Assembly (NCBI RefSeq): GCF_001758425.2
Contig: NZ_MDSS02000002.1
Span: forward strand, 62,001-126,000
Reading direction: 5' to 3'
Origin: Nesterenkonia sp. PF2B19
GTDB lineage: Bacteria > Actinomycetota > Actinomycetes > Actinomycetales > Micrococcaceae
Length of the DNA stretch: 64,000 nt
The first letter of the stretch is position 1. Each line of letters starts with the position of its first letter. Under the pieces are notes generated by a model. It did not search any database, had not been told where the DNA came from, and saw only the letters and a list, made by a program, of their open reading frames with translations. This document shows positions 9,462 through 63,654 of this stretch, one piece after another. The position numbers and the translations under genes are program-made.

Positions 9462-11557
9462 ATGAGTCAGACCACGAGTCACACCACCACTGACACTACT
9501 GAACACGAGGTGTCCTCACCATCCCTGGACACCGGTCTCCTCGAGGAGGTTCTGCTCGGACGGTGGGCGGACACCCGCCGAGTCTCTCGCGCCCTCGCCG
9601 CCGAGGACCGGTTCCATAAGATCGAGGGCCTGACCAAGGAGCAGCACCGCGAGCGCGTGCTCGGTCAGCTCCACGAGCTCGTCGCCGCCGATGCGGTCCA
9701 CCGCGCTTCCCGAAGGAGTTCGGGGGCCAGGACGCGCCGGGCGGGAACATCGCCGCCTTCGAGGAGCTCGTCACCGCCGACCCCTCGCTCCAGATCAAGG
9801 CGGGCGTCCAGTGGGGACTGTTCGGCTCCGCCGTGCTGCATCTCGGCACCGAGGAGCATCACCGACGCTTCCTGCCGGGCATCATGGACCTCAGCGTGCC
9901 GGGCGCCTTCGCGATGACGGAGATCGGCCACGGCTCGGACGTGGCCTCCATCGGCACCACGGCGACCTACGACCCGGCCGCCGATGAGTTCGTGCTCCAC
10001 ACGCCGTTCACGGCAGCCACCAAGCGGTTCCTCGGCAACGCCGCCGTGGACGGCAAGGACGCGGTCGTCTTCGCCCAGCTCATCACAGGGGGCGTGAACC
10101 ACGGGGTGCACTGCTTCTACTGCCACCTGCGGGACGACGACGGCCAGCCGCTGCCGGGCATCACCATCTGGGACGACGGCCAGAAGGGCGGCCTCAATGG
10201 GATCGACAACGGTCGGATCGCCTTCGACTCGATCCGGATCCCGCGCACCTACCTGCTCAACCGTTATGGGGACGTCGCCGCCGACGGCACCTACACCTCC
10301 TCCATCGAGAGCCCCGGCCGCCGGTTCTTCACCATGATCGGCACCCTGGTCCAGGGGCGCGTCTCGCTGTCCGGCGCCTCAGTGGCGGCCTCCAAGCTGG
10401 CCCTGATCGGCGCCGTCACCTACGGCAACCAGCGGCGCCAGTTCAACGCCTCCTCCCCCGTGGAGGAGGAGGTCATCATGGACTACCAGCTGCACCAGCG
10501 CCGGCTGATCCCTCGCCTGGCCACCACCGTCGCACTGACCTTCGCCCAGGAGAAGCTCCTGGCGAAGTTCGAGGACGTGTTCTCCGGCGCCGACGACTCC
10601 GACGAGAACCGCCAGGAGCTCGAGACGCTGGCCGCGGCCATCAAGCCGATCGCCACCTGGCACGCCCTGGACACGCTGCAGGAGGCCCGTGAGGCGTGCG
10701 GTGGAGCAGGGTTCATCGCGGAGAACCGTTTCGCGACGCTCCGCGCGGACCTCGACATCTACGTCACGTTCGAGGGTGACAACAACGTGCTGCTGCAGCT
10801 GGTGGCCAAGCGGCTGCTCAGCGACTTCGCCGCCGAGTTCAAGGACGCCGACGTCGGGGCGCTGTCCCGGTACGTGGCCTCGCAGGCCCAGTCGACGGTG
10901 CTGCACCGCTTCGGCCTGCGGCGGGCGATCCAGTCCGTGCAGGACACCGGCGACGAGCGTCGCAGCGCGAACTGGTTCAAGCAGACCGAGGTGCAGCGGG
11001 ATCTGCTCACCGACCGGGTCCGGCAGATGGTCACCGATGTGGCCGGGGAGCTGCGGAGCGTGGCCCGCAAGCCCGCCGCCGAGCAGGCCGCCACCTTCAA
11101 CGAGCACCAGCACGAGATCATCCAGGCGGCGACGGCCCACGCCGAGCTCCTCATCTGGGAGTCCTTCACCGAGGCGCTGGACGGAGTGGAGCACGCGGGG
11201 ACCCGTCAGGTGCTGACCTGGCTGCGCGACGTCTACACGCTGACCAGGATCGAGGAGAACCTGGACTGGTATCTGCTCAACGGCCGGATCTCCTCCCAGA
11301 GGGCCCGCACGCTGAGCCCCTACATCAACCGGCTGCTGGCCCGCCTGCGCCCGCTGGCGCAGGACATCGTGGACTCGTTCGGCTACACCGCCGATCATGT
11401 GCGCATGGAGGTCGCATCCGGTGCCGAGCAGCTGCGTCAGGAGGAAGCGATGGAGCACTACCGCGTGCTCCGCGCCTCTTCGGACGCACCCGTGGACGAG
11501 AAGATCCTGCTCAAGCGGCGCCAGCAGGAGCGTCGGGGGCGACGCACGGAACGCTGA
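9462..11557 (+). CDS. Acyl-CoA oxidase/dehydrogenase family protein (frameshifted)
   Basis: Predicted FAD enzyme that introduces the first double bond in fatty acyl-CoA oxidation, about 698 residues when repaired. The reading frame breaks at about 9705: the first 81 codons run in one frame, then FPKEFGGQDAPGGN onward continues in another, consistent with one missing base. Family signs are TEIGHGSDV in the mid region and an ACOX-like C-terminal part, CGGAGF...NRF followed by TFEGDNNVLLQLVAKRLL. Start has AAGGAG eight bases upstream. It is divergent from the thiolase operon. The ACOX-like C-terminus makes oxidase likelier than a plain FadE dehydrogenase, but the electron acceptor is not certain. 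Confidence 0.85.
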
Positions 11558-11580
11558 GGCTCGGAGACGGGGCGGGCAGG

Positions 11581-11640
11581 GCCGCACAGAGCCGGACTGG
11601 GCTGCACAGAGCCGGACTGGGCTGCACAGGGCCGGACCGG
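11581..11640. repeat. Three tandem 20-bp direct repeats
   Basis: Three adjacent copies with period 20, each of the form GCYGCACAGRGCCGGACYGG; copies 1 and 2 differ at one base and copy 3 at a few. They fill the gap between the acyl-CoA oxidase stop and the pepN promoter and do not code. Confidence 0.85.
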
Positions 11641-11654
11641 GGTCGCGACCCGGC

Positions 11655-11684
11655 TTTGCCCGCCCCGTCGGATGCGGCTTGAAT
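11655..11684 (+). promoter_or_regulatory. Promoter for leaderless pepN transcript
   Basis: TTTGCC (11655-11660), an 18-base spacer and TTGAAT (11679-11684) end six bases before the pepN ATG. No ribosome binding site is present. Confidence 0.4.
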
Positions 11685-11690
11685 GGGGTC

Positions 11691-14382
<2,692 letters not shown>

Positions 14383-15426: not shown

Positions 15427-15687
15427 TCAGGCGTGGTCGCGGCGGTGCTGTGAGCTGCCGCGCGGGGTGTCGGTGGGGTCCACCACACGGCCCTCCACCG
15501 CGGGACGCTCGGCGTCGCCGGTCTCGGGGTCCTTGGAGTCAGACTCGTCCTGCATCGTGCGGACCTCGGATTTGAAGATCCTCATCGACTGACCCACGGA
15601 CTTGGCCAGCTGTGGAAGCTTCGGCGCACCGAACAGCAGGATGATGAGCAGGGCGATGATGGCGATCTGCCAACCGGTGATGTTCAT
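15427..15687 (-). CDS. tatA: Twin-arginine translocase subunit TatA
   Basis: An 86-residue protein with one N-terminal transmembrane helix (about residues 5-20), the FGAPKLPQLAKSVGQS hinge and amphipathic helix, and an acidic soluble tail. It oligomerises to form the Tat pore. Its ATG overlaps the pafBC stop in an ATGA arrangement, implying translational coupling. Confidence 0.95.
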   Translation of the reverse strand: MNITGWQIAIIALLIILLFGAPKLPQLAKSVGQSMRIFKSEVRTMQDESDSKDPETGDAERPAVEGRVVDPTDTPRGSSQHRRDHA

Positions 15688-18031
15688 GGAGTGCGTCCTT
15701 TCGTCTGGCCCCCAGGATACTCCACCGAGCTGGACACACCGTCGCCCAGGGCCGCCAGCCCCCGTTCGGCTCGACGCACGACCTCCCCGGCAAGCTCCTC
15801 CGGCTGCAGCACGGTGACGTCGCCCCCGGAGCGCAGCGCCAGATCGACGGCGATGGACCCGCTGCGCAGGGCGACCTCCACCGTCCGCGCGCCGTCCTCT
15901 CCCCAGACCTCCCGCACGGGCGCCCAGGCATCAGCGTCGGCCGCCGCCGAGGGGGCGAAGCGCAGGATCACGAGCTCGTCATCGCGACGACGAGGGACCT
16001 CCGGGCGGCGCGCAGGCTCGGTCGCGAGCGCGCGGGCCTGATCGCTCAGCGGCGTGTCCGGCATCGGCGTCAGGTCCAGCACCCGGCCGAGCAGGAAGTT
16101 CCGCTCCCCCTCCACCGACCGGCACCAGGCCCGCAGGTAGGTGCGGGCGCCGTCGTGCAGCAGCGTCACGGGGTCCACGACGCGACGGGTCCGGCGGTTC
16201 TGGACATCTTCGTAGAGGAGTTCGACGGCGTGCTCGCCGTCGAGGGCCTCGCGCAGAACGGCCTCGTGGCCGAACTCGTCGGCGCTCTGCCAGGCCACAC
16301 TCAGCTCGGCGGCAGTGGCGTCGAGCTCAGCCGGAACGATCGCACGGATCCTGTCGCGCAGGCGCGCGGCGGCCTGCCGGACCGGCTCGGTGTCCGGATC
16401 CTGGGAGGCGATGAGACCCTCCAGGGCGATCAGCACCGAGAGCGCCTGCGGTGCGGTCAGCCGCAGCGGACGCCCCAGCGTGTCCTGAAGCCGCGGGCCC
16501 GGCAGGGCGATGCGGATGACCGGGTCCTCTGCCAGCAGCTGCTTCTCGAACACGCGACGCGTCAGCGGAAGCTCTGGGTCGATGTCGATGTAGTGCCCGA
16601 ACTGCGCGGAATCGAAGGCGGCCGACTGCTGCAGGGAGAGAAGATCCCGGTGCAGCTGACGAGGCGTGATGCTGTAGCGCTCCAGCAGATCGCTGGCCCG
16701 TGCACCGCCGGTGGCGTGCAGGTAGGCGGCCATCGACATGACCCGGGCGATCTTCGCTCCGGCGTCGTTGGTCGTCGAGGTCCGCGGCGCCCTCAGCTCC
16801 TCCGCCGGAACCGGGCTGTCCCGATGCGCCCGGCGCACAGCTTCCAGGTGACGCCGGACCAGCGCCGTGAGTCGCTCCCCGGAGAGCACCCGGACCCGCG
16901 GCAGCGCGACGGCGATCTTCCCCAGGAAGCTGTCGTGGAGCGTGGTCTCGACCGTAAGTCGGACAGCTTCGTCGTGGGACGCCTCAGAAGACACAGGATC
17001 GTGACGCGCATGCGGCAGGAAGGTGGCCGCGACGTCGGCGTCGGCCTCCAGCTCCACCGTCTCCGTCCCGTGGGCCGGGCCGAGGGTCTCGAGCTGCTCG
17101 CGGGTCACCTGCGGGGGGTCGATGCGGCCGTCGGCGATCTGCTCCAGGACGGTCCTGATGGAATCGTCCGGCGCCGTGAGCCGGGTGATGTCGCCACGGA
17201 TGCGGTCCAATCGGTAGACACGGACGGCGTCGCGGTCAAGATCGTGGCCCACCAGATACCAGCCGCCGCGGGAGCCTACGCCCAACGGCACCGTGCGGCG
17301 CTGTTGGGCGCGATGCCGGCCTCGCGGACTGTAGGTGAACGCCACTGCCGCAGTCGTCAGGGAGTCGGCGAGGGTCCCGAGGTGGTCGAGCACGTGGTCG
17401 TCGGCCAGACCCAGTCTCACCGATGCCGGAGGCGGCAGAGCGCCGGGCGTGGGCGCCTCCGGATCGCAGTCGAAGCGGCCGCGGCACGGTCGCCCGCCGG
17501 CTCCGAGGCCTGCAGGGCCGTCAGCGCGCCGGCGGCCTGCCGTATGGCCGCCTGTGCCCGGGTCCCGCTCCACAGCAGCTCGGCGTGTCGCAGGGCGATG
17601 ACCTCGTCCGCCGGAATCCGCAACGGGGGCAGCCCGTGGGCCTCCGGATCGATGACGTAGCGGAAGTCGTGGTCACCGCCGTGGCCGTCCCGCCCCTCGT
17701 CCTCGGAACCCAGGGACGTGATGTCGATGCCGAGCCGCCGCAGCGTCCGCTTGTCCCGGTTGAACTGCTGCTCGAAGGCCTCCCGGGAGGTCTCGCCCTC
17801 GGGACGGTAGTGCTCGACCCGCTCCCGGATCTCTGCCTTGGAGAGGCCCACGGGGGCGGCGTCGATCAGCGTCGCCGCCAGCGAGAGCGCGCGGCTGACG
17901 CCGGTGTCGGCGAAGGCGTCCTGTCGCTCCGCCTCAGGAGCATGCGGCGTCGTCCCGTAGACGAAGCCCCCCTGCCCCTCGGCGCCGATCCGGTCCGGCC
18001 CGCCTCGGCTGCGGTGGCGATACCCGACCAC
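15684..18031 (-). CDS. pafBC: PafBC fusion, WYL-domain transcriptional regulator (frameshifted)
   Basis: PafB and PafC fused in one reading unit of about 782 residues. Each half has a winged-helix DNA-binding region and a WYL ligand domain. The N-terminal (PafB) wHTH reads LSKAEIRERVEHYRPEGETS; a second HTH region (PafC) follows in mid protein. The frame changes at about 17477 within a GC-rich run, consistent with one missing base; resumption is at FDCDPEAPTPG. In mycobacteria PafBC activates the LexA/RecA-independent DNA damage response, and the two genes are reported fused in Arthrobacter relatives. GTG start lies six bases after the FKBP stop; the stop overlaps tatA. Confidence 0.88.
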
Positions 18032-19941: not shown

Positions 19942-21426
19942 TCACACCAGCGGGGGCTCGGGCGGTGCCGCGGGCTGTGTCCGCACGTAGCGCTCGCTGA
20001 GCGCCAGCGGCACCGACTGAGCCTCCCGCTCGGCGGGGTTCAGCTCGAGCAGCTCGCCGCCGAGGCGAGCCAGCAGCGTCTCGATCCGAGGGTCCTCGGT
20101 CACGAAGGGATCCTTGACCATGACCGCCTCCAAGGGGCGGTCCACCAGCTTGTGGTGGACCCAGTCCACGGTGTGGCCGACGCCGTGGGCACGAGCCGCT
20201 GAGAGGAAGCGCCCCCGGACGACGGCACGCGTCGTCGCGGGCGGGTCGGTGATCGCCCGACGCAGGCGGGCGTCGTCGAGCAGCCTCTCGGCGCGGCCCC
20301 GTCGGACCAGCAGGTGGAACAGGCCCCGTTCCGGGTGGATGTCATGGTAGGCGAAGTCGATCTGATCCAGCCGGGGCGCCCCGAGGTCGAGCCCTGAGCG
20401 GGCGGCGACCTCGTCGATCAGCCGCTTCTTGATGGCCCAGTCGATCTCCCGGTCGATGAGCGAGTGATCGCCGGTGGCGACCGCCTCCACGGCTCTGCCC
20501 CAGAGGTCGAGGACCTGCTCGACCCTGTCGTGGTGGGCTCCGTGCCGGGCGACGAAGCGGCGCGCCTTCTCGAGCAGAGCGGCCTGCACGTCCACAGCCG
20601 TCACGCGCTTGCCCTCGCGGGTGCGCACCGTCGCGCGCCCGGAGAGGTCGTGGCTGATGTGGCGGATCGCGCTGATCGGGTTCTCCAGCTCGTGGTCTCC
20701 CAGCGGCTGGCCGGCCTCGATCATGCGCAGGACGAGGTCTGTCGCACCGAAACGCACCAGCTGGGTGGTCTCCGACATGTTCGAGTCGCCCACGATCACA
20801 TGCAGCCGCCGATGCACCGACGCATCGGCATGCGGCTCGTCCCGGGTGTTGATGATCGGACGGGACCGGGTGGTGGCCGAGGAGATGCCCTCCCACATGT
20901 GGTCGGCACGCTGCGAGAAGGCGTAGTGCGCCGGTGCGTCCTCCGTCGCGGGGACGATGCGCCCGGCACCGGCGATGATCTGGCGGGTCACCAGGAAGGG
21001 CAGCAGCACGGTGGACAGTCGCCGGAAATGCGTGGTCCGAGGGATCAGGTAGTTCTCGTGCGAGCCGTAGGAATTGCCCTGCGAGTCGATGTTGTTCTTC
21101 AGCAGGTAGACCGATCCGGGAAGCCCGTCGGCGCCCATCGCCGCCTCGGCCCGCTGGCCGAGGTCATGCATGATCAGCTCCCCCGCCCGGTCCGAGGCGA
21201 TGAGGTCGAGCAGGTCATCACATTCGGCGGTGGCGTACTCCGGATGGGATCCGACGTCGAGGTAGAGCCGGGACCCGTTCGGAATGAAGACGTTCGAGCT
21301 GCGCCCCCAGTCGATCACCGGACGGAACAGGTACCGGGCGGCCTCGTCCGGCGCCAGTCCGCGACGTCCCTGGCCGTGGTGCGCCAGGCCGAACTCGGTC
21401 TCCACGCCGAAGACGCGACGCTCCAT
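19942..21426 (-). CDS. pafA: Pup--protein ligase PafA
   Basis: The 494-residue glutamine-synthetase-like ligase that joins the C-terminal glutamate of Pup to lysines of target proteins using ATP. The nucleotide/metal signature VETEFG with Glu9 is at the N-terminus, followed by the SRLYLDVGSHPEYATAEC strand and the [10 protein letters not shown]...RLHVIVGDSNMSE core. It starts only four bases after the pup stop, where prcB and prcA usually intervene, so pup and pafA are directly coupled here. Confidence 0.97.
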   Translation of the reverse strand: MERRVFGVETEFGLAHHGQGRRGLAPDEAARYLFRPVIDWGRSSNVFIPNGSRLYLDVGSHPEYATAECDDLLDLIASDRAGELIMHDLGQRAEAAMGADGLPGSVYLLKNNIDSQGNSYGSHENYLIPRTTHFRRLSTVLLPFLVTRQIIAGAGRIVPATEDAPAHYAFSQRADHMWEGISSATTRSRPIINTRDEPHADASVHRRLHVIVGDSNMSETTQLVRFGATDLVLRMIEAGQPLGDHELENPISAIRHISHDLSGRATVRTREGKRVTAVDVQAALLEKARRFVARHGAHHDRVEQVLDLWGRAVEAVATGDHSLIDREIDWAIKKRLIDEVAARSGLDLGAPRLDQIDFAYHDIHPERGLFHLLVRRGRAERLLDDARLRRAITDPPATTRAVVRGRFLSAARAHGVGHTVDWVHHKLVDRPLEAVMVKDPFVTEDPRIETLLARLGGELLELNPAEREAQSVPLALSERYVRTQPAAPPEPPLV

Positions 21427-21430
21427 GCTG

Positions 21431-21643
21431 CTACTGACCGCCCTTCTGGACGAATCCCTTCACGAACTCCTCGGCGTTGCTCTCCAGCACCGAGTCGATC
21501 TCGTCGAGCAGGCTGTCGAGCTCTTCCACCCGTGCCTGAGACTGGGCGTTTCCGCCGGCAGGGGCCGGCGCTCCACCGTCCCCGGGGGCTCCCGGGGTGT
21601 CCTGCTCGGTCTGGCCGGGACGGCGCTGCGGCTGAGTGGCCAT
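21431..21643 (-). CDS. pup: Prokaryotic ubiquitin-like protein Pup
   Basis: A 70-residue, largely disordered protein modifier. The Pro/Gly-rich N-terminal half is followed by a helical coiled-coil segment (VEELDSLLDEIDSVLESNAE) that in other species docks on Mpa, then the C-terminal GGQ. Ending in Gln means the precursor must be deamidated by Dop before ligation. Located between dop and pafA. Confidence 0.97.
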   Translation of the reverse strand: MATQPQRRPGQTEQDTPGAPGDGGAPAPAGGNAQSQARVEELDSLLDEIDSVLESNAEEFVKGFVQKGGQ

Positions 21644-21662
21644 GATGTCTCCCTTCCTCGTC

Positions 21663-21695
21663 CCCGGACCCGGCGCCGAGCACCAGGGGTCCGGG
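21663..21695 (-). terminator. Hairpin between dop and pup
   Basis: A 9-bp perfect stem (CCCGGACCC and complement) with a 15-base loop in the 148-base gap between the repaired dop stop and pup. It may attenuate read-through from mpa-dop into pup-pafA; a weak prediction. Confidence 0.4.
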
Positions 21696-21791: not shown

Positions 21792-23526
21792 TCAGGACTC
21801 CAACAGACGGCGCAGCCCGGCCACCAGGTCCTCAGGGGCTTCGGCGGCATACAGGACAGGCTCCGCGTCGGCACGGGAGCCGCGGGTCGCTCCGCCATCG
21901 TCAGACGCGTGACGCGTCCCAGCGGATCGGGACGCAGCAGGATCTGGTCCCAGCTGGCGCCGACCACGTGGTCGGCATGCTGGGACACGAGCTGGCCGCG
22001 CAGCCAGGCCCGGGTCTCCTCGGGCGGGTGCGCCGCCGCCCAGGCGACCTGATCGTCGGTGAACAGCCGCCGCATCCGCCCGGCCCGGGCCAGCTTGTGG
22101 TAGAGCCCGCGCTCCGGCCGGAGGTCGGCGTACTGCAGGTCGATGAGCTTCAGCTGCGGGGCATCCCAGTCCAGCCGGTCCCGCCGACGGTAGGACTCCA
22201 TGAGGGTCAGCTTGGCCACCCAGTCCACGCGGTCCGCGGCCAGGGTGAGGTCGTTCTCGAGGTCCTCCAGCAGAGTCTCCCAGGCCTCGAGCACCTCCGC
22301 GGTCTCGGTGTCCGGGGCGGTGTGGGCCGACTTCGGTCCGGACTTCTCGGCCGCCCGGGAGGCCGCGGCCCGCAGGTAGAGCCGCTGGATCTGCAGGGCG
22401 GTCATCTCGCCCCGATTGGTGCGCACCGTGGTGGTGAGGCTCGGGTCATGCGAAACGGCCTTCAGCGCATCGACCGGGTCGTGCAGGCGCAGCTGGGGAG
22501 CCCGACCGGACTCGATCAGGTCCAGGACCAGCGCCGTGGTGCCCACGCGGAGCCAGGCCGAGTACTCACTCATGTTCGCGTCGCCGATGATCACGTGCAG
22601 GCGCCGATGCCGGTCGCGTCGGCGTGCGGCTCATCCCGGGTGTTGATGATGGGGCGCCGCACCGTGGTCTCCAGACCCACCTGCTCTTCGAAGAAGTCGG
22701 CCCGCTGAGAGATCTGGAAGCCGCTGCGAGAGGCTCGCTGACCGATGCCCACGCGACCGGCTCCACAGATGATCTGCCGGGTCACGAAGAACGGGATCAG
22801 CCCGGCGACCAGCTGATCGAAAGGCACCTCCCGGGGAACCAGGTAGTTCTCGTGGGCGCCGTAGGACACGGATTTGCCGTCGGTGTTGTTCTTGTAGAGC
22901 AGCAGCTCCGGGCTGCCATCCTCGCGAGCGAGCCGCTCCACGGCCCGCCGGACGATCACGTCCCCGGCGACGTCATAGAGCACCGCGCGCTTGGCGCCGA
23001 TCGTCTCCGGCGCGGAGTACTCGGGGTGGGCGTGGTCCACGTACAGCCGCGCCCCGTTGGTCAGCACCAGGTTCATCAGCAGCTGCGGCTGCCCCTCCCG
23101 GAGCTCGAAGAAGTCGCCGCGCCAGTGCGCCGATCCCGGCGCATGGAACTCCGAGTCCCCACTGTCCTCCTGTCCTTCCGAGAGGTCTGCGGGACTCGCC
23201 GTCGAGGCGGTCCTCGGCGTGGCCCGCACCGGGACGTCGGCCGGGGAGGGGTCTCCCCCGCTGACCCCCTCGAGGGCCTCGCCGGTGTCGGTCAGCTGGC
23301 TCGGATGCGCCGCCGAACGGGGCAGCACCCAGCCGCGGGCGTCCACCAGGGGGGACTCCGAACGGTAGTCCCACTCCGTGCCGGCCACCGCGCCGCCGTC
23401 CTCCGTGACCGCCGCCGCATAGGCGTTGACCAGCTCGATGGACAAGGCCACGTGGCTCGCCCGGGGGTTGTTCGGGGCGTGGATCCCGTACTCGGTCTCC
23501 ATGCCGATCAGACGCCGTACGCTCAT
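21792..23526 (-). CDS. dop: Deamidase of Pup / depupylase Dop (two frameshifts)
   Basis: PafA homologue that converts the Pup C-terminal Gln to Glu and removes Pup from substrates; about 578 residues when repaired. N-terminal [10 protein letters not shown] carries the catalytic glutamate. The Dop-specific loop is present and long ([16 protein letters not shown] region). The frame breaks at about 22607 inside the conserved [28 protein letters not shown] segment, where one missing C restores it. It breaks again at about 21865, after which the conserved end [20 protein letters not shown] is recovered, stopping at 21792. ATG overlaps the mpa stop (ATGA). Without repair the visible C-terminus would run to 21743. 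Confidence 0.93.
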
Positions 23527-25253
23527 CGGGCTCCTCCGGCCAGTCGTTCGACCCGCACCACCGGGGACGGGGCGGCGCCGAGCACCCGCGCCCATTCCTG
23601 GGGGTCCGCGGTGTTCACCAGGTCCTCCTGGTCACGCAGCTCGGCCTCGGCCGCTGCCAACAGCTGCTCCTCCGAGAGCCCCTTGGCCTCCACACTGCGG
23701 TCAGCGGCGAGGAACTGCTTGATGGCGGACTTCTTGGCCCGGTCGACGATGTTGCTCAGCACCGCTCCCGAGATGAAGTCCGCGGCGGTGAAGTCCGTGG
23801 TGGCGCCGTCCGCGTGCACCAGGCGGAGACGCGCCGCCGAGTCCTGCGGATAGAGCCGGTCGACGACGGCGTCGACCATCGCCTCCACGGCCTCGGCATG
23901 CCCGCCCTTCTCCGCGACATAGTCGGCCCGCAGCGGCAGCCGACCGCCCAGATGGATCCCCAGGATCTCCCGGGCGCGGCGGCGCCGGGACGGCGGACTC
24001 GGATCTTCACGTCCAGGCGCCCGGGGCGCAGGATCGCCGGATCGATCATATCCTCCCTGTTGGAGCGCCGATGACGATGACGTTGTCCAGGGACTCGACG
24101 CCGTCGATCTCCGCCAGAAGCTGCGGGACGATCGTGGTCTCCACGTCCGAGGAGACGCCGGTGCCGCGCGTGCGGAACAGCGCCTCCATCTCATCGAAGA
24201 ACACCACCACCGGGTGTCCCGCCGAAGCCCGCTCCCGCGCCCGAGAGAAGATCACCCGGATATGACGTTCCGTCTCGCCGACGTACTTGTTCAGCAGCTC
24301 GGGCCCCTTGATGTTGAGGAAGAAGCTGCGGGCCGACGTCGTCCCGGGGGCCCCCGCGCCGTCTGGCGCTTCGACGCCCTGCAGCGAGGAGGCCACGGCC
24401 TTGGCGATCATGGTCTTCCCGCAGCCCGGAGGGCCATAGAGCAGGATGCCCTTAGGCGCGCTGAGCCCGTGCTCGCGGTAGAGGTCCGCGTGCAGGAACG
24501 GCAGCTCGACGGCGTCGCGGATCTGCTCGATCTGCTCGGAGAGACCACCGATGTCCGCATAGGAGACGTCCGGCGTCTCCTCCAGCACGACGTCTTCGAC
24601 CTCGGAGAGCGGCACCACCTCGGTCGCGGTGCCGGTGCGCAGGTCCACCGTGACGGCGTCGCCGACCCGCACCGGAGTCTCGTGGTCACCGGCGAGGCGC
24701 ACCAGACGCTCATCTTCGCCCCGGATGAAGACCACCAGACGACCGTCCGGCAGCACCTCCTTGACCCGAGCGAGCTCCCCGGTGTCCTCGGCCGGCAGCA
24801 CCGCCACCACGGTGAGGTGCTCGTTGAGCAGCACCTCAAGCCCGGGCCGCAGCTGCTCGGGGTCGAGCAGCGGGGACACGCTGACCCGCATCTTCCGGCC
24901 GCCGTGCAGGATGTCCGCCCCGGGTCCGGTGGCCGCGTCGATCTCCCGTCCCTCGACCAGCTCATGGGCCGGCCGGTAGCCGATCACGGTGCCGAAGGTG
25001 AAGGGTGCCTGGCCGTCGGCGTGCAGCGCGGTGCGCAGCTCGTCCATCTGGTTCCGCGTGGTCTCCAGCAGTCGAGCCATCCGCTGGTTCGTGCTCCCGG
25101 CGGTCTGCAGCTGCTGCTCCAGCTGGCGGCTGCGCTGGCGCAGCGAGTCGAGCTGCCGGTGGGCGCGCTCCAGGCGCTCCTGCAGCTGCTCGGCCGTGGC
25201 CTCTGCCGGCGAGGACTCTCCAGTGGGCGGTCCCTGTGCGGCGTCTGGCTCAT
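23523..25253 (-). CDS. mpa: Proteasomal-type AAA ATPase Mpa/ARC (three frameshifts)
   Basis: Hexameric AAA+ unfoldase that recognises pupylated proteins; about 577 residues repaired. Order: N-terminal coiled coil ([18 protein letters not shown] region), OB domains ([10 protein letters not shown]), then AAA with GPPGCGKT Walker [11 protein letters not shown] Walker B and RTRGTG. Missing single bases at about 24065 (restoring [14 protein letters not shown]) and about 23985 (restoring [14 protein letters not shown]) break it. A third shift at about 25215 joins the ATG at 25253, which overlaps the trmI stop as ATGA, to the coiled coil. The C-terminus reads [11 protein letters not shown] and lacks the GQYL-type tail used to open the 20S proteasome. 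Confidence 0.92.
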
Positions 25254-34762: not shown

Positions 34763-34793
34763 TCGCCCGCGTCGTCGTGCGTCCGACAGAAGG

Positions 34794-46995: not shown

Positions 46996-47024
46996 GAGAC
47001 ACATATGCTCGACCCCGGTAGTCT
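46996..47024 (+). promoter_or_regulatory. Promoter of the tkt-tal operon
   Basis: GAGACA (46996-47001), 17-base spacer and TAGTCT (47019-47024). The 323-base gap between serB and tkt has no gene. It contains an AT-richer patch around 46826-46860, and the promoter lies in its last quarter, leaving a 5' leader of about 58 bases with GGAGGAA before the GTG. Confidence 0.5.
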
Positions 47025-47088
47025 GGACACGCGCGGCACGACGATGTGCAGCCTCGTTGTCATCCGTCAAAACCTTGGAGGAACCTCA

Positions 47089-49215
47089 GTGACCGAAACA
47101 GCCGTGAACGACTCCGCCGTCTTCAGCGATCTCGACGAGCGGGCCGTCGACACCCTGCGCGTGCTGGCCGCCGACGCCGTCGAGAAGGTCGGCTCCGGCC
47201 ACCCCGGTACGGCCATGTCGCTGGCTCCCGCCGCCTATCTGCTCTTCCAGAAGGTCATGAGGCATGACCCGAAGGATCCCACCTGGATCGGTCGTGACCG
47301 GTTCATCCTCTCTCCGGGGCACACGTCGCTGACTCTCTACCTCCAGCTGTTCTTCTCCGGCTACGGCCTGGAGCTGGACGACATCAAGGCCCTGCGCACC
47401 TGGGACTCGCTGACCCCGGGGCACCCCGAGTACGGCCACACCGACGGTGTGGAGATCACCACCGGCCCGCTGGGCCAGGGGCTCGCCTCCGCCGTCGGCT
47501 TCGCCTACGGCCAGCGCCGCATGCGGGGTCTGCTGGACCCCGACGCCGCTCCGGGCGAGAGCCCCTTCGACCACACCGTGTGGGTCATCGCCTCCGACGG
47601 CGACCTGCAGGAGGGCGTCACCTCCGAGGCCTCCTCGCTCGCAGGCCACCAGCAGCTGGGCAACCTCGTCGTCATCTACGACGACAACAAGATCTCCATC
47701 GAGGACGACACGGACATCGCCTTCACCGAGGACGTCTCGGCCCGCTACGAGGCCTACGGCTGGCACGTCCAGCGGGTCGACTGGCTGAAGACCGGCGACT
47801 ACGTCGAGGACGTGGCCGAGCTCGAGCGTGCCATCGCCGAGGCGAAGGCGACCACCGACAAGCCCTCGCTGATCAGCCTGCGCACCATCATCGGCTGGCC
47901 GGCCCCCACCAAGCAGAACACCGGCGGCATCCACGGCGCCAAGCTCGGCGGCGACGAGCTGGCCGCGCTGAAGACGGTCCTCGGCGTCGACCCCGAGGCA
48001 CACTTCGGCGTCGACGACGAGGTCCTCGGCCCACGCCCGCCAGGTGGTGGACCGCGGGGCCGCCGCCCACGCCGAGTGGGACCAGTCCTACCAGGCCTGG
48101 CGTCAGCCAACCCCGAGGCCGCCGCGCTGCTGGACCGCCTGACCGCCGGCGAGCTGCCCGAGGGCTGGGAGGAGAGCCTCCCCGAGTTCCCGGCCGGCGA
48201 GGCCGTGGCCACCCGCGCCGCCTCCGGCAAGGTCCTCAACGCCGTCGGCGACGTGCTGCCCGAGCTCTGGGGCGGCTCCGCAGACCTGGCTGGGTCCAAC
48301 AACACGCTGATCGCGGCCTCCCCCTCCTTCGTTCCGGAGGAGCGATCCACCTCGAAGTTCTCCGGCAACCCCTACGGCCGGAACCTGCACTTCGGCGTCC
48401 GGGAGCACGCCGCAGCGGCCATCACCAACGGCATCCAGCTCTCGACGCCGCTGCGCACCTACAACGGCACCTTCCTCATCTTCTCCGACTATCAGCGTCC
48501 GGCGATCCGCCTGGCGGCGCTGATGGGGATCGGCTCCATCTTCGTGTGGACCCACGACTCCATCGGCCTCGGTGAGGACGGCCCGACCCACCAGCCGGTG
48601 GAGCAGCTCGCCTCCCTGCGGGCGATCCCGGGACTCGACGTGGTCCGTCCCGGTGACCCGAACGAGGTCGTCGTCGCCTGGCGCGAGGTGCTGCGCCGCG
48701 GGGACCGTCCGGCCGGCCTGGCGCTGACGCGTCAGGGCATCCCCACCTACGAGCGCGGGGAGGGTGCGGCGACCGCGGAGTCCTTCGGCTCGGTCGAGGG
48801 GGCCGCCCGGGGTGCCTACGTGCTCGCCGAGGCCGTCAGGGATGGCCAGGCCGTCACCCCCGATGTGATCCTGATCGGCACGGGGTCCGAGGTGCAGCTG
48901 GCCGTGGAGGCTCGCGAGCAGCTGGCCGCCAAGGGCGTCGCCGCCCGTGTGGTCTCCGCTCCCTGCCTGGAGTGGTTCGCCGAGCAGGACGGCGCGTACC
49001 GGGAGCAGGTCCTGCCCTCCTCGGTGAAGGCCCGTGTGGCGGTGGAGGCGGCGCACCCGATGAGCTGGCACCGGCTCGTCGGCGACGCCGGCCGCGTGGT
49101 CGGCCTCGACCACTTCGGCGCCTCCGCCGACTATCAGACCCTGTACCGCGAGTTCGGCATCACCACCGAGGCCGTCTCCGCGGCCGCCGAGGAGTCCGTC
49201 GCGGCCGCGCGCTGA
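47089..49215 (+). CDS. tkt: Transketolase
   Basis: A 708-residue thiamine diphosphate enzyme of the pentose phosphate pathway. [30 protein letters not shown] and the GDGDLQEGV-like [15 protein letters not shown] segment bind cofactor, and [22 protein letters not shown] is the pyrimidine domain. GTG 47089 has GGAGGAA upstream. Residues about 314-339 (48028-48106) are read out of frame: an extra base at 48028 and a missing base at 48106 cancel each other. In the alternative frame the segment reads [20 protein letters not shown], which is the expected family sequence. Confidence 0.95.
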
Positions 49216-49285
49216 CCGCCGCCCCGCAGTTCCGACCCCCAGGGCGACGCCGTCGCCCGCTGACATGTCATCAGGAGACATACCC

Positions 49286-50406
49286 ATGACGAACCCGAAC
49301 ACCCAGGCGCTCTCCGACCAGGGCGTCTCCATCTGGCTGGACGACCTCTCCCGCGAGCGTCTCGACTCCGGCTCGCTGGCCGAGCTCATCGAGAGCCACC
49401 ACGTGGTCGGTGTGACCACCAACCCGACGATCTTCGAGAACGCTCTGGCCAAGGGCGAGGCCTACGAGAAGCAGCTCAGCGAGCTCGCCGCCGCCGGCGC
49501 CGATGCGGAGAAGGCCGTCTTCGAGATCACCACCGCCGATGTGCGCCAGGCCTGCGACGTCTTCGCCGGCGTCTACGAGCGCACCGACGGCGTGGACGGC
49601 CGGGTCTCGATCGAGGTCGACCCCCGTCTCGCCCGCGACACCGAGGGCACCATCGCGCAGGCCAAGGAGCTCGCGGAGGCGGTCGGGCGTGAGAACGTGC
49701 TGATCAAGATCCCCGCCACGGTGGAGGGCATCGAGCGATCGCCGCAGTGCTCGCCGAGGGCATCAGCGTCAACGTCACGCTGATCTTCTCCCTGGAGCGG
49801 TACCGCGCGGTCATCAACGCGTTCATGCTCGGACTGGAGAAGGCCCACGCCGAGGGCAAGGACATCTCGACTATCCACTCCGTGGCCTCCTTCTTCGTCT
49901 CGCGCGTCGACTCCGAGGTGGACAAGCGTCTGGAGCTGGCTGCGGAGGAGGGCAAGCCGGGCACTGAGAAGCTGCGCAGCGCCGCGGCACTCGCCAATGC
50001 CCGGCTGGCCCACCAGATCGCCGGCGAGTCGTTCAGCTCCGAGCGCTGGCAGCTGCTGGCGGATCGCGGCGCGCGCCCCCAGCGCCTGCTGCTGGCCTCC
50101 ACCGGCACCAAGGACCCCAACCTCTCGGACACGCTGTACGTGACCGAGCTGGTGGCCGCCGGCGTGGTCAACACCATGCCGGAGAAGACCCTCATGGCGC
50201 TGGCCGACCACGGCGTGGTCGAGGGCGACACGATGACCGACACCTACGTGGAGTCCAACCGGGTCCTCGACGGCATCGCCGCGGCCGGCATCAGCTACCG
50301 CGACGTCGTGGACACCCTCGAGACCGAGGGGCTCGACAAGTTCGTGCAGTCCTGGGAAGGCCTGCTGGGCACCATCGACGCGGGTCTGCGTCGCGTGGTG
50401 GCCTGA
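49286..50406 (+). CDS. tal: Transaldolase (frameshifted)
   Basis: Class I aldolase of the non-oxidative pentose phosphate branch, about 373 residues repaired. [12 protein letters not shown] and [13 protein letters not shown] at the N-terminus, [17 protein letters not shown] and the Schiff-base lysine in NVLIKIPAT. The frame breaks at about 49735, just after TVEGIE; inserting one G restores [22 protein letters not shown] 49286 has AGGAGA eight bases upstream. Co-transcribed with tkt and ended by a strong hairpin. Confidence 0.94.
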
Positions 50407-52412: not shown

Positions 52413-54009
52413 ATGAATCCGACCCTTCGGAGCACCCCGCGCAGCAGCCGCACCTCCCGCGGAGGCAATCCGCTGCGCGATGTCCGCGACAGGCGGCTGA
52501 ACCGCATCGCCGGGCCCAGCGCCATGGTGATGTTCGGCGTCACCGGTGACCTGGCCCGGAAGAAGCTGCTGCCGGCGATCTACGACCTCGCCAACCGAGG
52601 ACTGCTGCCGCCGAGCTTCTCCCTGGTGGGCTTCGGCCGCCGAGACTGGACCCACGAGCAGTTCGCCGCCGAGGTCCTCGACCATGTGAAGGCCTCGGCG
52701 CGCACCAGCTTCGACCAGCGGGTGTGGGACCAGCTCTCCGCGGGGCTGCGGTTCGTCCCGGCCGCAGGATTCGACGACGACGACGCCTACGCCCGCCTGG
52801 GCGAGACGCTGCGGGAGGTCCAGGAGTCCCGCGGGACCCGAGGCAACCACGCCTTCTACCTGTCGATCCCGCCGAACTCCTTCGACGTGGTCTGTGAGAA
52901 GCTCTCCGCCCATGGCCTCGCCTCCCGCCAGGAGGAGACGGCCGCCCGCAACGGGCGTTCCACGCCGTGGAGCCGAGTGGTCATCGAGAAGCCGTTCGGC
53001 CACGACCTGGCCTCCGCCCGGGAGCTGAACCGCGTGGTGGAGAAGGTCTTCCCCTCAGACTCGGTGTTCCGCATCGACCACTACCTGGGCAAGGAGACGG
53101 TCCAGAACCTGCTGGCCCTGCGCTTCGCCAACCAGCTGTTCGAACCCCTCTGGAACGCCCAGCACGTGGACCACGTGCAGATCACCATGGCCGAGGACAT
53201 CGGCATCGGCGGACGTGCCAGCTACTACGACGGCGTCGGCGCGGCCCGCGACGTCATCCAGAACCACCTGCTGCAGCTGCTGGCGCTCACGGCCATGGAG
53301 GAGCCGATCTCCTTCGACGCGCGACCTGCGCGCGGAGAAGGAGAAGGTGCTGGCCGCCGTCACCCTCCCCGAGGACCTCGGCGCCGCCTCGGCCCGCGGG
53401 CAGTACGCCTCCGGCTGGCAGGGCGGCGAGAAGGTCGTCGGGTTCCTGGACGAGGAGGGTTTCAACCCGGAGTCCAGGACCGAGACGTTCGCGGCGCTGA
53501 AGCTGGACATCAACACCCGCCGCTGGGCCGGGGTGCCCTTCTATCTGCGTGCCGGCAAGCGATTGGGGCGCCGGGTCACCGAGATCGCGGTGATCTTCAA
53601 GAGGGCACCCAATCTGCTGTTCCTGGACCACGACGACCACGAGTTCGGCCAGAACGCGGTGGTCATCCGGGTCCAGCCGGACGAGGGCGCGACGATCCGC
53701 TTCGCCTCCAAGGTGCCGGGGACTCAGATGGAGGTCCGTGACGTGACCATGGACTTCGGCTACGGCCACGCCTTCACGGAGGACAGTCCGGAGGCCTACG
53801 AACGGCTCATCCTGGACGTGCTGCTCGGCGAGCCTCCGCTGTTCCCCCGCCACGAGGAGGTCGAGCTGTCCTGGAAGATCCTCGACCCATTCGAGGAGCA
53901 CTGGGCCTCCCTCGACGAGCAGCCGGAGCCCTACGCTCCGGGCAGCTGGGGGCCCGCGTCGGCCCACGAGCTGCTGGCCCGCGATGGACGCACCTGGCGC
54001 CGGCCGTAG
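52413..54009 (+). CDS. zwf: Glucose-6-phosphate dehydrogenase (frameshifted)
   Basis: First enzyme of the oxidative pentose phosphate pathway, about 532 residues. [19 protein letters not shown] is the NADP fold and [21 protein letters not shown] the active site with catalytic His. The frame breaks at about 53322: ...EEPISFDA then [13 protein letters not shown] in another frame. A two-base loss in a GC dinucleotide run (or one extra base) explains it. GAGAGAG before the ATG. Downstream opcA encodes its assembly factor. Confidence 0.94.
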
Positions 54010-55010: not shown

Positions 55011-55817
55011 ATGACCGTGCCCCTGAACACCGCCGCCGCAGCGCCCCGCACCGAGCTCTTCGAGGACAAGGACTCGCTGTGCCGGGCCGTGGCGGAGCGT
55101 CTGATCGATCTGCTGCGCCGCACCGTGGCCGAGGACGGCGCGGCCCATGTGGCGCTCACGGGCGGCGGTGCAGGCATCGGCACCCTCGTCGAGGCCGCCC
55201 GGCTCTTCCGCTCGGGAGCCGCCGAAGGACTTGACCTCTCCGCGGTGCACCTCTGGTGGGGCGACGAGCGGCTGCTCCCGGCCGGCGACGCGGAGCGCAA
55301 CGCGCAGCAGGCCGACGAGGCCCTGCTGGACCTGCTGGTGGCCGAGCACGGCCTCCCGGCGGCCAACATCCACCGGATGCCGTCCTCGGAGGACGCCGCC
55401 TCCCCGCGGGAGGGGGCTGAGCTCTATGCGGAACAGCTTGCCCTCCACGCCCCTGAGGGAGGCCGTGCGGGGCTGCACCTCCCGCGGTTCGCCGTCATCC
55501 TGCTCGGCGTGGGGCCCGACGGGCACATCGCCAGCCTCTTCCCGGGCAAGGCCGCTCTGCAGGTGACGGGCCGGACCACTGTGGGAGAGGACGACTCCCC
55601 CAAGCCACCGCCGCCCCGGGTGTCTCTGACGTTCGACGCGATCCACAGCGCCGAGCGGGTGTGGTTGGTCGTCGCCGGCCAGGACAAGGCCGAGGCCGTC
55701 CGCCGCGCAGCAGACGAGACCACGGAGGTCACCGAGATCCCGGCGAAGAACGCCCGTGGTGCCCGTGAGACCATCTGGCACGTGGACCGCGCCGCCGCGG
55801 GGCACGCTCAGACCTGA
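55011..55817 (+). CDS. pgl: 6-phosphogluconolactonase
   Basis: A 268-residue enzyme hydrolysing the lactone made by Zwf. ALTGGGAGIG, VHLWWGDERLLP and LLGVGPDGHIASLFPG are the SugarP-isomerase-type motifs with catalytic His. ATG 55011 has AGAGAGG eight bases upstream; an ATG at 54978 overlapping the opcA stop would add 11 residues. Its 3' end overlaps the convergent phosphoesterase gene by ten bases. Confidence 0.93.
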   Translation: MTVPLNTAAAAPRTELFEDKDSLCRAVAERLIDLLRRTVAEDGAAHVALTGGGAGIGTLVEAARLFRSGAAEGLDLSAVHLWWGDERLLPAGDAERNAQQADEALLDLLVAEHGLPAANIHRMPSSEDAASPREGAELYAEQLALHAPEGGRAGLHLPRFAVILLGVGPDGHIASLFPGKAALQVTGRTTVGEDDSPKPPPPRVSLTFDAIHSAERVWLVVAGQDKAEAVRRAADETTEVTEIPAKNARGARETIWHVDRAAAGHAQT

Positions 55818-56623
55818 GGCTCGATGGTCCGGTCCGCCCCCACGGTGCGCACCGTCGCCGACCAGCATCCGGACGACATCGACACGACGACGTACTGCCG
55901 TTGGCGAGCCCACGACGGAGCCGCCAGGAGGCCCGCCCCGGCGACTTCTCCCATGAGCGCGTGGCGCCCGTGCCCGGCGAGCACCACCCGGGTGTCGGTG
56001 CCCTCCAAGGCCTCGGTGAACGCCGAGGCGTCGGCCACCACCGCCCTCAGTGCGTCCGCCGCGCCGTTCCTGGGGAACGGGTACGGCGGCGGGGAGGCCA
56101 GGGACGTCGCCACCGGTGGATGGTGCAGGCACACGACGCTTCCCCAGGGCGCGTCCGTGGCGAGTCGACGTCGCATCCAGCGCAGCTGAGCCTCCCCCAG
56201 GCGTCCGGAGCTGCTGTCCAGCAGCACGAGCCGCAGCGGGCCCAGACGGTGCACCGTCCAGGACCCAGCACGCAACGACGGGATCGCCTTGGCTGCGATG
56301 GCGTCGTCATGGTCACCCAGAGCACACAGCACGGGAGCCGCCAGTCGCGTCTCCACGCACCGCAGCGCCGCCGCAAGCATCGGATAGGACTCGGCTGTCC
56401 CCTGGTGCACCAGGTCCCCGGTGATGATGACCGCATCGGCCCGTCGCCCGGGGCCATCCTCCCGGCTCAGATCCTCGACCAGCAGTTCCAAGGACCCCAG
56501 AGCGTCCGTACCGGGTGCTCCCAGCTGCAGATCGCTGAGGTGGACCACGAGGCGTTCCTCCCGACGCGGGGGCGCTGAGCCATCACCTGCCGGTCGCTGG
56601 GAGGTGAGCAGGTCTCGTGGCAT
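55808..56623 (-). CDS. Metallophosphoesterase family protein
   Basis: A 271-residue calcineurin-like fold protein. Motifs are recognisable but altered: SDLQLG in place of DxH, GDLVHQG (GDxx), LGDHDD in place of GNHD, LHHPP, and AGHGRH in place of GHxH. So two of the metal ligands differ from the consensus, although DxQ also occurs in other members. Possibly a nucleotide or phospholipid phosphoesterase; start uncertain between 56623 and 56698. Confidence 0.78.
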   Translation of the reverse strand: MPRDLLTSQRPAGDGSAPPRREERLVVHLSDLQLGAPGTDALGSLELLVEDLSREDGPGRRADAVIITGDLVHQGTAESYPMLAAALRCVETRLAAPVLCALGDHDDAIAAKAIPSLRAGSWTVHRLGPLRLVLLDSSSGRLGEAQLRWMRRRLATDAPWGSVVCLHHPPVATSLASPPPYPFPRNGAADALRAVVADASAFTEALEGTDTRVVLAGHGRHALMGEVAGAGLLAAPSWARQRQYVVVSMSSGCWSATVRTVGADRTIEPQV

Positions 56624-56700
56624 CCCCCTATGGTGTCCACCGATGGTGACGGCAGGATGAACGCGTCCCGTCAGCGTGATGACGAATCGTCCGGACACGC

Positions 56701-56746
56701 GATGGGGCCCGTGACCCGACCGGACGGTCGAGTCACGGGCCCCATC
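56701..56746 (-). terminator. Terminator hairpin after secG
   Basis: A 15-bp perfect stem, one mismatch, then six more pairs around a two-base loop; 34 bases past the secG stop. It ends the gap/pgk/tpiA/secG block. Confidence 0.75.
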
Positions 56747-56779
56747 CCGCGCGGTCCCGGAGGACGGCTCAGCGGAGGA

Positions 56780-61276: not shown

Positions 61277-61427
61277 GCGGTGCTCCTTGCAGCAGGGATT
61301 CATCGGGCCGGGGCGTCGAGCCCCGCTCGCCCTCAATCCTATGACTCCGACCCAGAACGCATAAGGGGTTACCGACTATGACAGCCGATGTTCACCACGG
61401 GAGGAAACTTCCTCACGAGAGAAAGAT

Positions 61428-61441
61428 TTAGGCATTCCTAA
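61428..61441. promoter_or_regulatory. TTAGG-N4-CCTAA site, DtxR/MntR-like
   Basis: TTAGGCATTCCTAA is a perfect 5-bp inverted repeat with a four-base centre, about 150 bases upstream of sodA. It matches the first 14 positions of the DtxR/IdeR box pattern in its arms but not the full 19-base consensus. A second dyad, GAGGAA-AC-TTCCTC, is at 61401-61414. The 185-base gap between whiA and sodA has no gene. Confidence 0.4.
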
Positions 61442-61461
61442 TTATCGCGGGGCCACGCCCC

Positions 61462-62442
61462 TCAGGTCTCCAGCATGTCAGGAGTGACGTTGGCCTCGGT
61501 GCCTGGCACATCCAGCTCCTGCGCCCGCTTGTCGGCCATCGCCAGCAGACGACGGATGCGTCCGGCGATGGCGTCCTTGGTCATGGGCGGCTCCGCGAGC
61601 CGACCCAGCTCATCCAGGGATGCCTGCCTGTGCTGCAGGCGCAGCTCACCGGCATATTTCAGGTGCTCGGGAGCCTCGTCGCCGAGGATCTCCAGCGCCC
61701 GCTGCACCCGGGCTCCCGCGGCGACGGCGGCCTGCGCCGACCGCCGGAGGTTGGCGTCGTCGAAGTTCGCCAGCCGGTTCGCCGTGGCCCGCACCTCCTT
61801 GCGCATGCGTCGCTCCTCCCACACCAGCAGGGCCTGATGGGCGCCCATGCGGGTCAGCAGCTGGGCGATCGAGTCGCCGTCCCTGATCACCACGCGATCC
61901 ACGGAACGCACCTCGCGGGCCTTCGCCGTGAGTCCCAGGCGACGCGCGGCGCCCACGAGCGCCAGCGCGGCCTCCGGTCCGGGGCAGGTGACCTCGAGCG
62001 AGGATGAACGCCCCGGCTCGGTGAGCGATCCGTGAGCCAGGAACGCGCCCCTCCAGACCGCGACCGCATCAGCCACCGACCCGTTGACGATGACCGAAGG
62101 AAGCCCTCGGACCGGGCGACCACGGGCGTCGAGCAGGCCTGTCTGTCGCGCCAGGGCCTCGCCTTCGCGGACCACCCGGACCACGTAGCGGCTGCCCTTC
62201 TTCAGGCCCGACCCGGAGACCACGATGATCTCACTGGAGTGTCCGTAGACCTCGGCGATCGCGGCACGCAGGCGGCGCGCCGTCGCCGCATGGTCCAGCT
62301 CCGCCTCGATGACGATGCGCCCCGAGATGATGTGCAGTCCGCCGGCGAACCGCAGCATGGCCGAGACCTCGGCCTTGCGCTCAGAGGATGTGGAGACCTC
62401 CTGGCGAGAGAGCTCTTCCTTGACCGATTCGGTCAGCGCCAT
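61462..62442 (-). CDS. whiA: DNA-binding protein WhiA
   Basis: A 326-residue regulator of division and sporulation genes. An N-terminal LAGLIDADG-like domain precedes a C-terminal HTH ([27 protein letters not shown]). GGAGGAACG before the ATG. Third in the conserved rapZ-yvcK-whiA cluster. A small GGGGC hairpin follows the stop. Confidence 0.96.
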
Positions 62443-62582
62443 ATGAACGTTCCTCCGGTGGTTTCTGTCGCAGTGAGCACGGCATCGGGCTCCGACATGC
62501 TACTGGATGGTTCTGGGCACGGCGTCGAGGGTGTGATCCGCGCGACTCCCCCGACCCCCAAGGCGACCCGCGCCCTCGCCCG

Positions 62583-63654
62583 TCAGGAGCCGAAGACCTC
62601 GTCGAAGGCGATCGCCAGCCGGAGCGGGTCATGGACCTCAGGATCATCCTCCTTGCGCACCCGGTGATAGCCCACGCGCGCCCCGAGCCGCGCCGCCGCC
62701 TGCTCGAAGGCGGCACGGTCGTCCGTGCGCACGGAGTCCGGGGCGGCGATGATCCGGTCCACGTGGAGCTCAGGGGCATGGTCGATCAGCACCTCGAGGT
62801 GATCCGCCGGCGTCATCCCGACGGTCTCATCGGTGTCAGCTGTGAGGTTCATCACGATACACCGCTTCGCCTCGGTCTCGCACAGGGCCGCTCGCAGATC
62901 CTCGAGCAGCAGATGCGGCAGCACCGAGGTGTACCAGGACCCCGGGCCGAACACGACCCAGTCCGAGAGTTCGATCGCCGTGACCGCCTCGCTGCACGCC
63001 TGCGCCTCCTCGGGATGGATCCGCACATCGGTGAGCCGGCCCAGCTGACCCGCCCGGGCCAACTCCACCTGGGAGGAGACGCGCATCGGCGCTGACGGCT
63101 CCTGCCCGTCAGCGGCGGGGCGATGCACCAGGCCGGACATCGTCAGTGGCTCACGCGACATCGGCAGCACCTGCCCCCGCGCGCCCAGCAGCGCCCCGGC
63201 CCAGCGCAGACCGTCGACGGGATCACCGATGAGCTCCCAGAGCGCGACGATCAGCAGATTGCCCATGGCGTGGTCATCGAGGCTGCCGGTGACACCGTCC
63301 CGGGAGCGGAAGCGATGCTGCATGACCTGCGCCCATGTGCGCCCCCACTCGGTGTCATCGCACAGCGCCGCAAGCGCCATGCGAAGATCTCCCGGGGGCA
63401 GCACGTCCATGTCCTGTCGGATGCGCCCCGACGAGCCGCCGTCGTCGCACGACCGTGACGACGGCCGTCAGGTGCTCGGCCGCGATGATCCGCAGCGCGG
63501 CCAGTGTGGCGGAGAGACCGTGCCCGCCGCCCAGCGCCGAGACACGGAACGACCGGCGGCCCGAGGGATGGGTGCCCCGGGACTCGGCCGTGGAGGGGAC
63601 GATCGGCACCGGCCCGGTCGACTGGGGGGCCGGAAAGGAGGAGGCCATGCTCAT
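62583..63654 (-). CDS. yvcK: YvcK family gluconeogenesis factor (frameshifted)
   Basis: UDP-sugar-binding protein (CuvA/YvcK) needed for growth on gluconeogenic carbon and for cell-wall balance. N-terminal [15 protein letters not shown] nucleotide loop is in one frame; [25 protein letters not shown] onward is in another. The change is at about 63449 and needs one extra base removed or two restored. C-terminal part has [19 protein letters not shown] overlaps the rapZ stop (ATGA). Length about 357 residues repaired, with an extra ~35 residues at the N-terminus. Confidence 0.93.

Follow-up and report, generated by a model that had tools for sequence, protein, structure and literature searches.

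Small indels that break nine conserved genes in a draft Nesterenkonia assembly are probably errors of the consensus sequence

The fourteen frame changes that interrupt nine conserved genes in the window, the 64,000-nucleotide stretch of the Nesterenkonia sp. PF2B19 assembly analysed here, are most probably small-indel errors in the draft consensus, and the genes themselves are in all likelihood intact in the living organism (probability about 0.97, judged from sequence comparison). We favor errors over real mutations because the same small base losses occur across the sampled assembly, indispensable cell-wall genes included. The preliminary description of this DNA had likewise argued for consensus error rather than decay, a view upheld by the excess of breaks throughout the sampled assembly, the involvement of needed genes, the near absence of nonsense codons, the coding constraint that is kept, and the predominance of one-base losses. 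The errors would have arisen at read calling or consensus building, chiefly through the dropping of a single base, at a rate that varies along the assembly, perhaps with read depth. This is an artefact of a known kind and of low biological interest.

All fourteen changes proposed earlier were confirmed (Table 1). Twelve are supported by gapped gene alignment to the nearest congener compared (G003), in which the region is syntenic, lies on one contig, and shares 74 to 88% DNA identity over aligned blocks; all nine genes form a single open frame there. When its open reading frames were searched against the window by tblastn, eight of the nine genes were split into at least two frame-shifted pieces. 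The exception, tkt, stays unsplit because the gained base offsets the lost one, with about 26 codons out of frame between the two sites.

Table 1. Interrupted genes in the window, with frame changes and unbalanced small gaps against G003
Gene	Positions	Strand	Frame change(s)	Gap(s), blastn	Split, tblastn	Basis
Acyl-CoA oxidase family gene	9462..11557	+	one, near 9706	9707	yes	alignment; Pfam ACOX domains on G003 ortholog
pepN (aminopeptidase N)	11691..14382	+	near 13723 and 13939	13723, 13939	yes	alignment; TIGR02412 on G003 ortholog
Fused pafBC-like regulator gene	15684..18031	-	between about 17429 and 17561; exact base not placeable		yes	
dop (depupylase)	21798..23595	-	near 21890 and 22610	21896, 22616	yes	alignment; TIGR03688 on G003 ortholog
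mpa (Pup-dependent AAA ATPase)	23527..25253	-	near 23978, near 24066, and at the start (about 25215-25253)	23976, 24065	yes	alignment (first two), start-codon position (third); TIGR03689 on G003 ortholog
tkt (transketolase)	47005..49215	+	gain near 48028, loss near 48106	48028, 48106	no	alignment; TIGR00232 on G003 ortholog
tal (transaldolase)	49265..50406	+	one, near 49735	49735	yes	alignment; TIGR00876 on G003 ortholog
zwf (glucose-6-phosphate dehydrogenase)	52413..54009	+	one, near 53322	53323	yes	alignment; TIGR00871 on G003 ortholog
yvcK	62583..63654	-	one, near 63448	63448	yes	alignment; TIGR01826 on G003 ortholog

The two remaining changes rest on other evidence. The pafBC-like gene is split between two frames, its pieces sharing 64% and 69% identity with G003, and the break at about 17477 lies in a poorly conserved linker; WYL and HTH_PafC domains were found in the downstream window piece and none in the upstream one, and the G003 ortholog has no NCBIfam match. 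At the N-terminus of mpa, the conserved protein is encoded in a frame that lacks a start, and an MSQ start stands in a different frame, whereas an in-frame M or V start is present in all six congeners. This break is not visible to BLAST, and an initial judgment that it was unsupported, based on a single tblastn frame reaching 25233, was dropped once the start-codon position supported it.

The coordinates given in the preliminary description hold to within about 10 bases for most sites but not for the first dop change (put at 21865), for pafBC, or for the mpa start. Its statement that mostly one base is missing is correct for eleven net losses of one, but there are also two gains of one and, in zwf, a change that alignment shows as two bases lost on balance and the coding model as one gained, all signs being counted modulo three and those of the pafBC and mpa-start changes read from frame alone. 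The stretch from 25.3 to 48.0 kb is, as had been noted, free of breaks by both methods, but the unevenness is only mild: such a large gap among 14 uniform points has P of about 0.031, a figure judged after the fact. Counted gene by gene against G003, the 43 aligned genes of the window (49,575 bp) contain 12 persistent frame changes; about 14 kb of the window lacks an aligned G003 gene. Checking of further candidates from the alignment yielded no additional supported break in the window; those at 4263, 8015, 28075, and 54990 resemble gene junctions or noncoding differences and were rejected.

Comparison with close relatives, which had been proposed as a check, makes the window the odd one out: two to six congeners align at twelve of the sites and agree with one another, and the breaks placeable by alignment are private to this assembly among the congeners compared. 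The same gene-level pipeline applied to the window region of five other congeners returned two events over 186,369 bp, and a single gene of G008 accounts for both. Outside the window, privacy was judged against G003 only, except for mraY and alaS, which were compared with 18 other genomes.

The breakage characterizes the assembly and is not peculiar to this region; the window even fares slightly better than the rest. The draft comprises 3.70 Mb in 134 contigs, of which we sampled 21% (784 kb of 3,697 kb, window included, partly aligned). With a frameshift-aware coding model, the 64-kb window has 11 filtered calls and 39 other stretches, 559.6 kb in total, have 121 (0.17 versus 0.22 per kb), compared with 4 in 393.5 kb of six congeners, so that the sampled assembly carries about 21-fold more breaks than its relatives. 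The rate is about 210 filtered calls per Mb, or about 330 after correction for sensitivity (320 of 495 simulated single-base indels recovered). The filter, adopted because calls near gene overlaps occur in every congener tested, set minimum lengths of 28 bases for continuation of the old frame and 60 bases for each of the two coding runs, thresholds chosen post hoc with the calls in the window and controls already inspected. In the window it retained 11 of 17 raw calls and removed the supported break at 24066; the dop change near 22610 drew no call from the model. A set of 16 named control loci yielded 6 filtered calls over 334 kb, with 5 falling in one locus (L012), although these controls are weaker than the congeners, as the model's training did not include them and only 56% of another (L009) was recognized as coding.

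Gene alignment to G003 across the sampled assembly detected 80 events, which break 56 of 280 genes (20%) over 311 kb; 16 of the 80 are unclassed and may partly be alignment noise. In one gene cluster on contig C85, murF, mraY, ftsW, and murC have clean single gaps, and murD, murG, and the variable tail of ftsZ have more tangled ones. Clean gaps also occur elsewhere in alaS, hemE, protoporphyrinogen oxidase, ruvA, ruvC, proA, cysD, and dihydropteroate synthase, while hemC, aconitase, and cysN contain two or more. A match to mraY over the family cutoff is missing only here among 19 genomes, and two part matches adjoin on C85. The alaS match ends at 789 of 847 model positions here, whereas 847 is reached in 17 other genomes; one 65%-complete genome has no match. 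It counts against the error reading that murC and alaS are broken close to the end of the gene, at base 1427 of 1485 and base 2478 of 2703, respectively.

Genes such as mraY, murF, and ftsW are indispensable to a walled bacterium. That they are not spared, with lipid II and cell-wall genes hit in one cluster, speaks against genome-wide decay of the kind known from Mycobacterium leprae, with the breaks as true pseudogenes, a reading that we regard as extremely unlikely. Such decay would fit both the privacy of the window breaks and the broken fraction of the aligned genes, a level seen in decaying genomes; M. leprae has 30% interrupted genes according to the cited portion of one study (PMC1852416). 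Yet the genome, at 3.7 Mb, is not reduced relative to congeners of 2.2 to 3.6 Mb.

Two further properties of the broken genes are at odds with decay. Alignment to G003 flagged six nonsense codons, of which at most one is internal and outside a misaligned stretch. If real decay made 10 substitutions per indel, about 16 nonsense codons would be expected, given a stop fraction of 2.5% computed here. In addition, coding constraint persists beyond the breaks: changes at the first two codon positions relative to those at the third stand at 0.195 in intact genes, 0.199 before the first break, and 0.225 after it. The slight weakening of constraint beyond the break is a point against the error reading.

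The predominance of one-base losses points to consensus error. Relative to G003, the 80 events comprise 53 one-base losses, 7 one-base gains, 4 net two-base losses, and 16 not classed. The short-run context suggested earlier shows as no more than a moderate enrichment: 25 of 38 well-placed losses fall in runs of at least two bases (43% expected; P = 0.004), but 13 are single bases outside runs, which a model based purely on homopolymers does not explain. The runs are four bases long at most. The lost base is G or C in 31 of 38 cases (68% expected). A single GGC/GCC motif suggested by the window sites fails, there being 34 different contexts over the 38 losses. This lack of a common context, together with the shortness of the runs, also tells against the idea that some changes are programmed frameshifts used in translation, to which we attach practically no credence. 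Beyond the frame changes themselves we found no support for it, and in congeners each of these genes occupies a single frame, with neither change nor site conserved. Programmed frameshifting requires a conserved site, and homolog-supported singletons are expected to be sequencing errors, as stated in the section cited (PMC3711429).

The consensus-error explanation has a variant that differs in the source of error: strain mixture or very low read depth, rather than base calling alone, could be responsible, with the genes intact in each cell. Uneven depth could account both for the unequal rates among stretches (P = 0.002; chi-square 43.2 with 20 degrees of freedom) and for the lower rates on longer contigs (Spearman -0.38, P = 0.036, over 31 points, of which the window is one). 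The contamination reported for the assembly is low (0.51), however, and a strain mixture by itself should not produce chiefly one-base losses in coding frames; we consider this variant rather unlikely.

Consensus errors of this kind have precedents. In Mycobacterium smegmatis, 28 of 73 studied interrupted coding sequences were sequencing errors, and the corrected sequences were closer to orthologs, according to the passages cited (PMC1852416). The present case is similar in that frames are broken in otherwise conserved genes; it differs in rate, the cited figure being about 4 errors per Mb against about 210 filtered calls per Mb here, or about 330 with the sensitivity correction. In the Kastor paper on uncorrected long-read assemblies, the share of genes scored as pseudogenes fell from 23.3% to 5.6% on correction (PMC12007338). 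Those were mostly false deletions, and the 20% of aligned genes broken here is comparable. The deletions described there lie mainly in runs of 2 to 8 bases, most often of A or T, whereas here most of the well-placed losses are of G or C and 13 of all 38 lie outside runs.

That a few genuine breaks stand among the errors is very unlikely; the candidates would be pafBC, dop, and mpa, whose six breaks might reflect true loss of the Pup pathway in a lineage where no 20S proteasome beta subunit was found. Nothing in the analysis sets these six breaks apart from the error background. Gene loss should not be read from this assembly, in which 56 of 280 aligned genes look broken and probably very few are, and any claim that a gene is missing or split here should be verified against congeners first.

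All 14 frame changes that the preliminary description had reported in nine genes of the window are supported, because twelve could be placed by alignment, the one in pafBC is seen from split frames and the N-terminal one in mpa from the start codon. The nearest congener compared, G003, consists of a single contig (3.57 Mb) that shares synteny with the window and is 74 to 88% identical to it in DNA over aligned blocks, and its open reading frames (ORFs) hit the window as at least two frame-shifted pieces for eight of the nine named genes. Comparison with close relatives, which had been proposed as a check, found the twelve placeable sites to be private to the window, with two to six congeners aligning at each and agreeing with one another against it. 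In pafBC the break falls within a linker of low conservation, where G003 has a single 790-residue ORF and the window has two pieces in different frames. At the mpa N terminus, the frame with an MSQ start differs from that of the conserved protein, which has no start, while the start (M or V) is in frame in all six congeners. Net changes modulo three are eleven one-base losses and two one-base gains, plus a net loss of two in zwf by alignment; the signs of the pafBC and mpa-start changes are based on frame alone. Gene-level counting gave 12 events across 43 window genes. Neither gene alignment to G003 nor the coding model found further supported breaks in the window, the coding model covering the ~14 kb outside aligned G003 genes, bar the parts reached by the G003 ORF search.

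The breaks are a property of the assembly, not of the window, which comprises bases 62001-126000 of a 129,496-base contig in a draft genome of 3.70 Mb and 134 contigs (completeness score, 96%; contamination, 0.51). We used a coding-frame model with frameshift states, trained on congeners, and a call filter chosen after inspecting calls in the window and controls. After filtering, the window retained 11 calls and 39 stretches elsewhere in the assembly (559.6 kb) retained 121; six congeners had 4 over 393.5 kb, a rate ~21-fold lower than in the sampled assembly. Unfiltered counts were 17, 257, and 80, respectively, the congeners' calls lying mostly within 25 bases of the stop of the old frame. 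The model recovered 320 of 495 simulated indels, and a rough extrapolation to the whole genome gives 870 to 1,240 breaks. Alignment to G003 yielded 80 events in 280 genes (311 kb), of which 56 are broken; run on window-region genes of five other congeners, this pipeline gave 2 events in 186 kb, although these controls are more distant from G003 (68 to 75% identity in mpa versus 88% for the window).

Both control events fall in one gene of a 65%-complete congener, G008. Elsewhere in that genome, downstream of its mpa (locus L140, ~2450-2555), lie two filtered calls ~100 bases apart. These G008 breaks possibly have the same origin, with a much lower frequency, or they may be real. Separately, a 21,253-base locus of Arthrobacter nitrophenolicus SJCon had 5 filtered calls, compared with a single one across the 15 remaining named loci, and errors of this kind may be present in that public draft as well.

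The density of breaks had been described as uneven, with none between 25.3 and 48.0 kb. Rates do differ among 21 stretches (chi-square, 43.2; P = 0.002), while the 22.8-kb gap itself has a P of ~0.031 among 14 uniform points and was chosen after the fact. Filtered calls were fewer on longer contigs (Spearman, −0.38; P = 0.036; 31 points). Uneven read depth could lie behind the rate differences.

Were the breaks real decay, nonsense codons should accompany them: if substitutions outnumber indels 10:1, decay would predict ~16 nonsense codons per 64 clean indels (stop fraction, 2.5%, computed here). Alignment to G003 flagged six in the 280 genes. Three are close to a gene end, two sit where the sequence between two events is misaligned, and the remaining one is internal, at a site that the model takes to be coding and free of any local frame change. 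Even at 4:1, the probability of at most one nonsense codon is 0.012. The codon-position ratio was 0.195 in intact genes. For the 39 broken genes whose events were all clean, it was 0.199 before and 0.225 after the first break (0.231 over all 56 broken genes); constraint is therefore retained, if slightly weaker after breaks.

Needed genes are also broken. Lipid II genes are indispensable to walled bacteria, yet the contig carrying the murF-ftsZ cluster has clean single-gap frame changes in murF, mraY, ftsW, and murC, and others amid further gaps in murD, murG, and the variable tail of ftsZ. Off this contig, frame changes are clean in alaS, hemE, protoporphyrinogen oxidase, dihydropteroate synthase, proA, ruvA, ruvC, and cysD and more tangled in hemC, aconitase, and cysN; those in murC and alaS are close to the gene ends. 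For 38 of the 56 broken genes, and for pafBC, the G003 ortholog was scanned against NCBIfam, and no match at 1e-10 was found for two of the 38 or for pafBC. MraY scored above its family cutoff in 18 of 19 genomes, the sole exception being PF2B19, with two adjacent part matches. The alaS match stops at 789 of 847 in PF2B19 and reaches 847 in 17 genomes; one 65%-complete genome has none.

The 80 events comprise 53 clean one-base losses, 7 one-base gains, 4 net two-base losses, and 16 unclassed. Among 38 losses whose flanks match well, the missing base was G or C in 31 (expected, 68%) and lay in a run of at least two in 25 (expected, 43%; P = 0.004), with 13 outside runs; the earlier wording, that breaks often affect short C or G runs, is therefore partly right.

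Features located in the window
Feature	Window coordinates	Observation
pafA, pup, dop, mpa (pupylation genes)	19942-25253	Present
pup	21434-21643	Pfam PF05639, E 7e-20
Stretch	34771-38050	No counterpart in syntenic G003 region (blastn); end adjoins tRNA-Leu
tRNA-Leu	38106-38193	
tkt gain and loss	48028 and 48106	Both gene ends in frame
Stretch	55799-56779	No counterpart in syntenic G003 region (blastn)

The two stretches without a G003 counterpart are possibly inserted or lost DNA. Among the matches listed for the window's zwf ORF, the first 15 of 80 named loci, at 71 to 74% identity, come from Arthrobacter, Pseudarthrobacter, Glutamicibacter, Sinomonas, and one "Micrococcaceae bacterium"; closer loci may exist beyond this list. 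The proteasome beta-subunit (TIGR03690) had no match in any of 13 genus genomes (two <80% complete), compared with matches in 4 of 6 genomes from elsewhere in the order; the C-terminal end of G003 Mpa is without the GQYL tail motif. It is already published that a subgroup of Actinobacteria has lost its proteasome subunit genes, Micrococcus luteus and Corynebacterium glutamicum being among the species presented (PMC8223512).

In Mycobacterium smegmatis, 28 of 73 interrupted genes were sequencing errors (PMC1852416); a study of programmed frameshifts demanded a conserved frameshift site and expected homolog-supported singletons to be errors (PMC3711429). Uncorrected long-read assemblies had mostly false deletions, with pseudogenes falling from 23.3% to 5.6% after correction (PMC12007338), and the 20% share of broken genes in the PF2B19 assembly is comparable to the uncorrected figure. 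With needed genes broken, few nonsense codons, and constraint kept after breaks, the proposal of consensus error rather than decay is supported. The breaks almost certainly represent a known type of assembly artefact, spread across all of the genome that was sampled, and carry no biological novelty.
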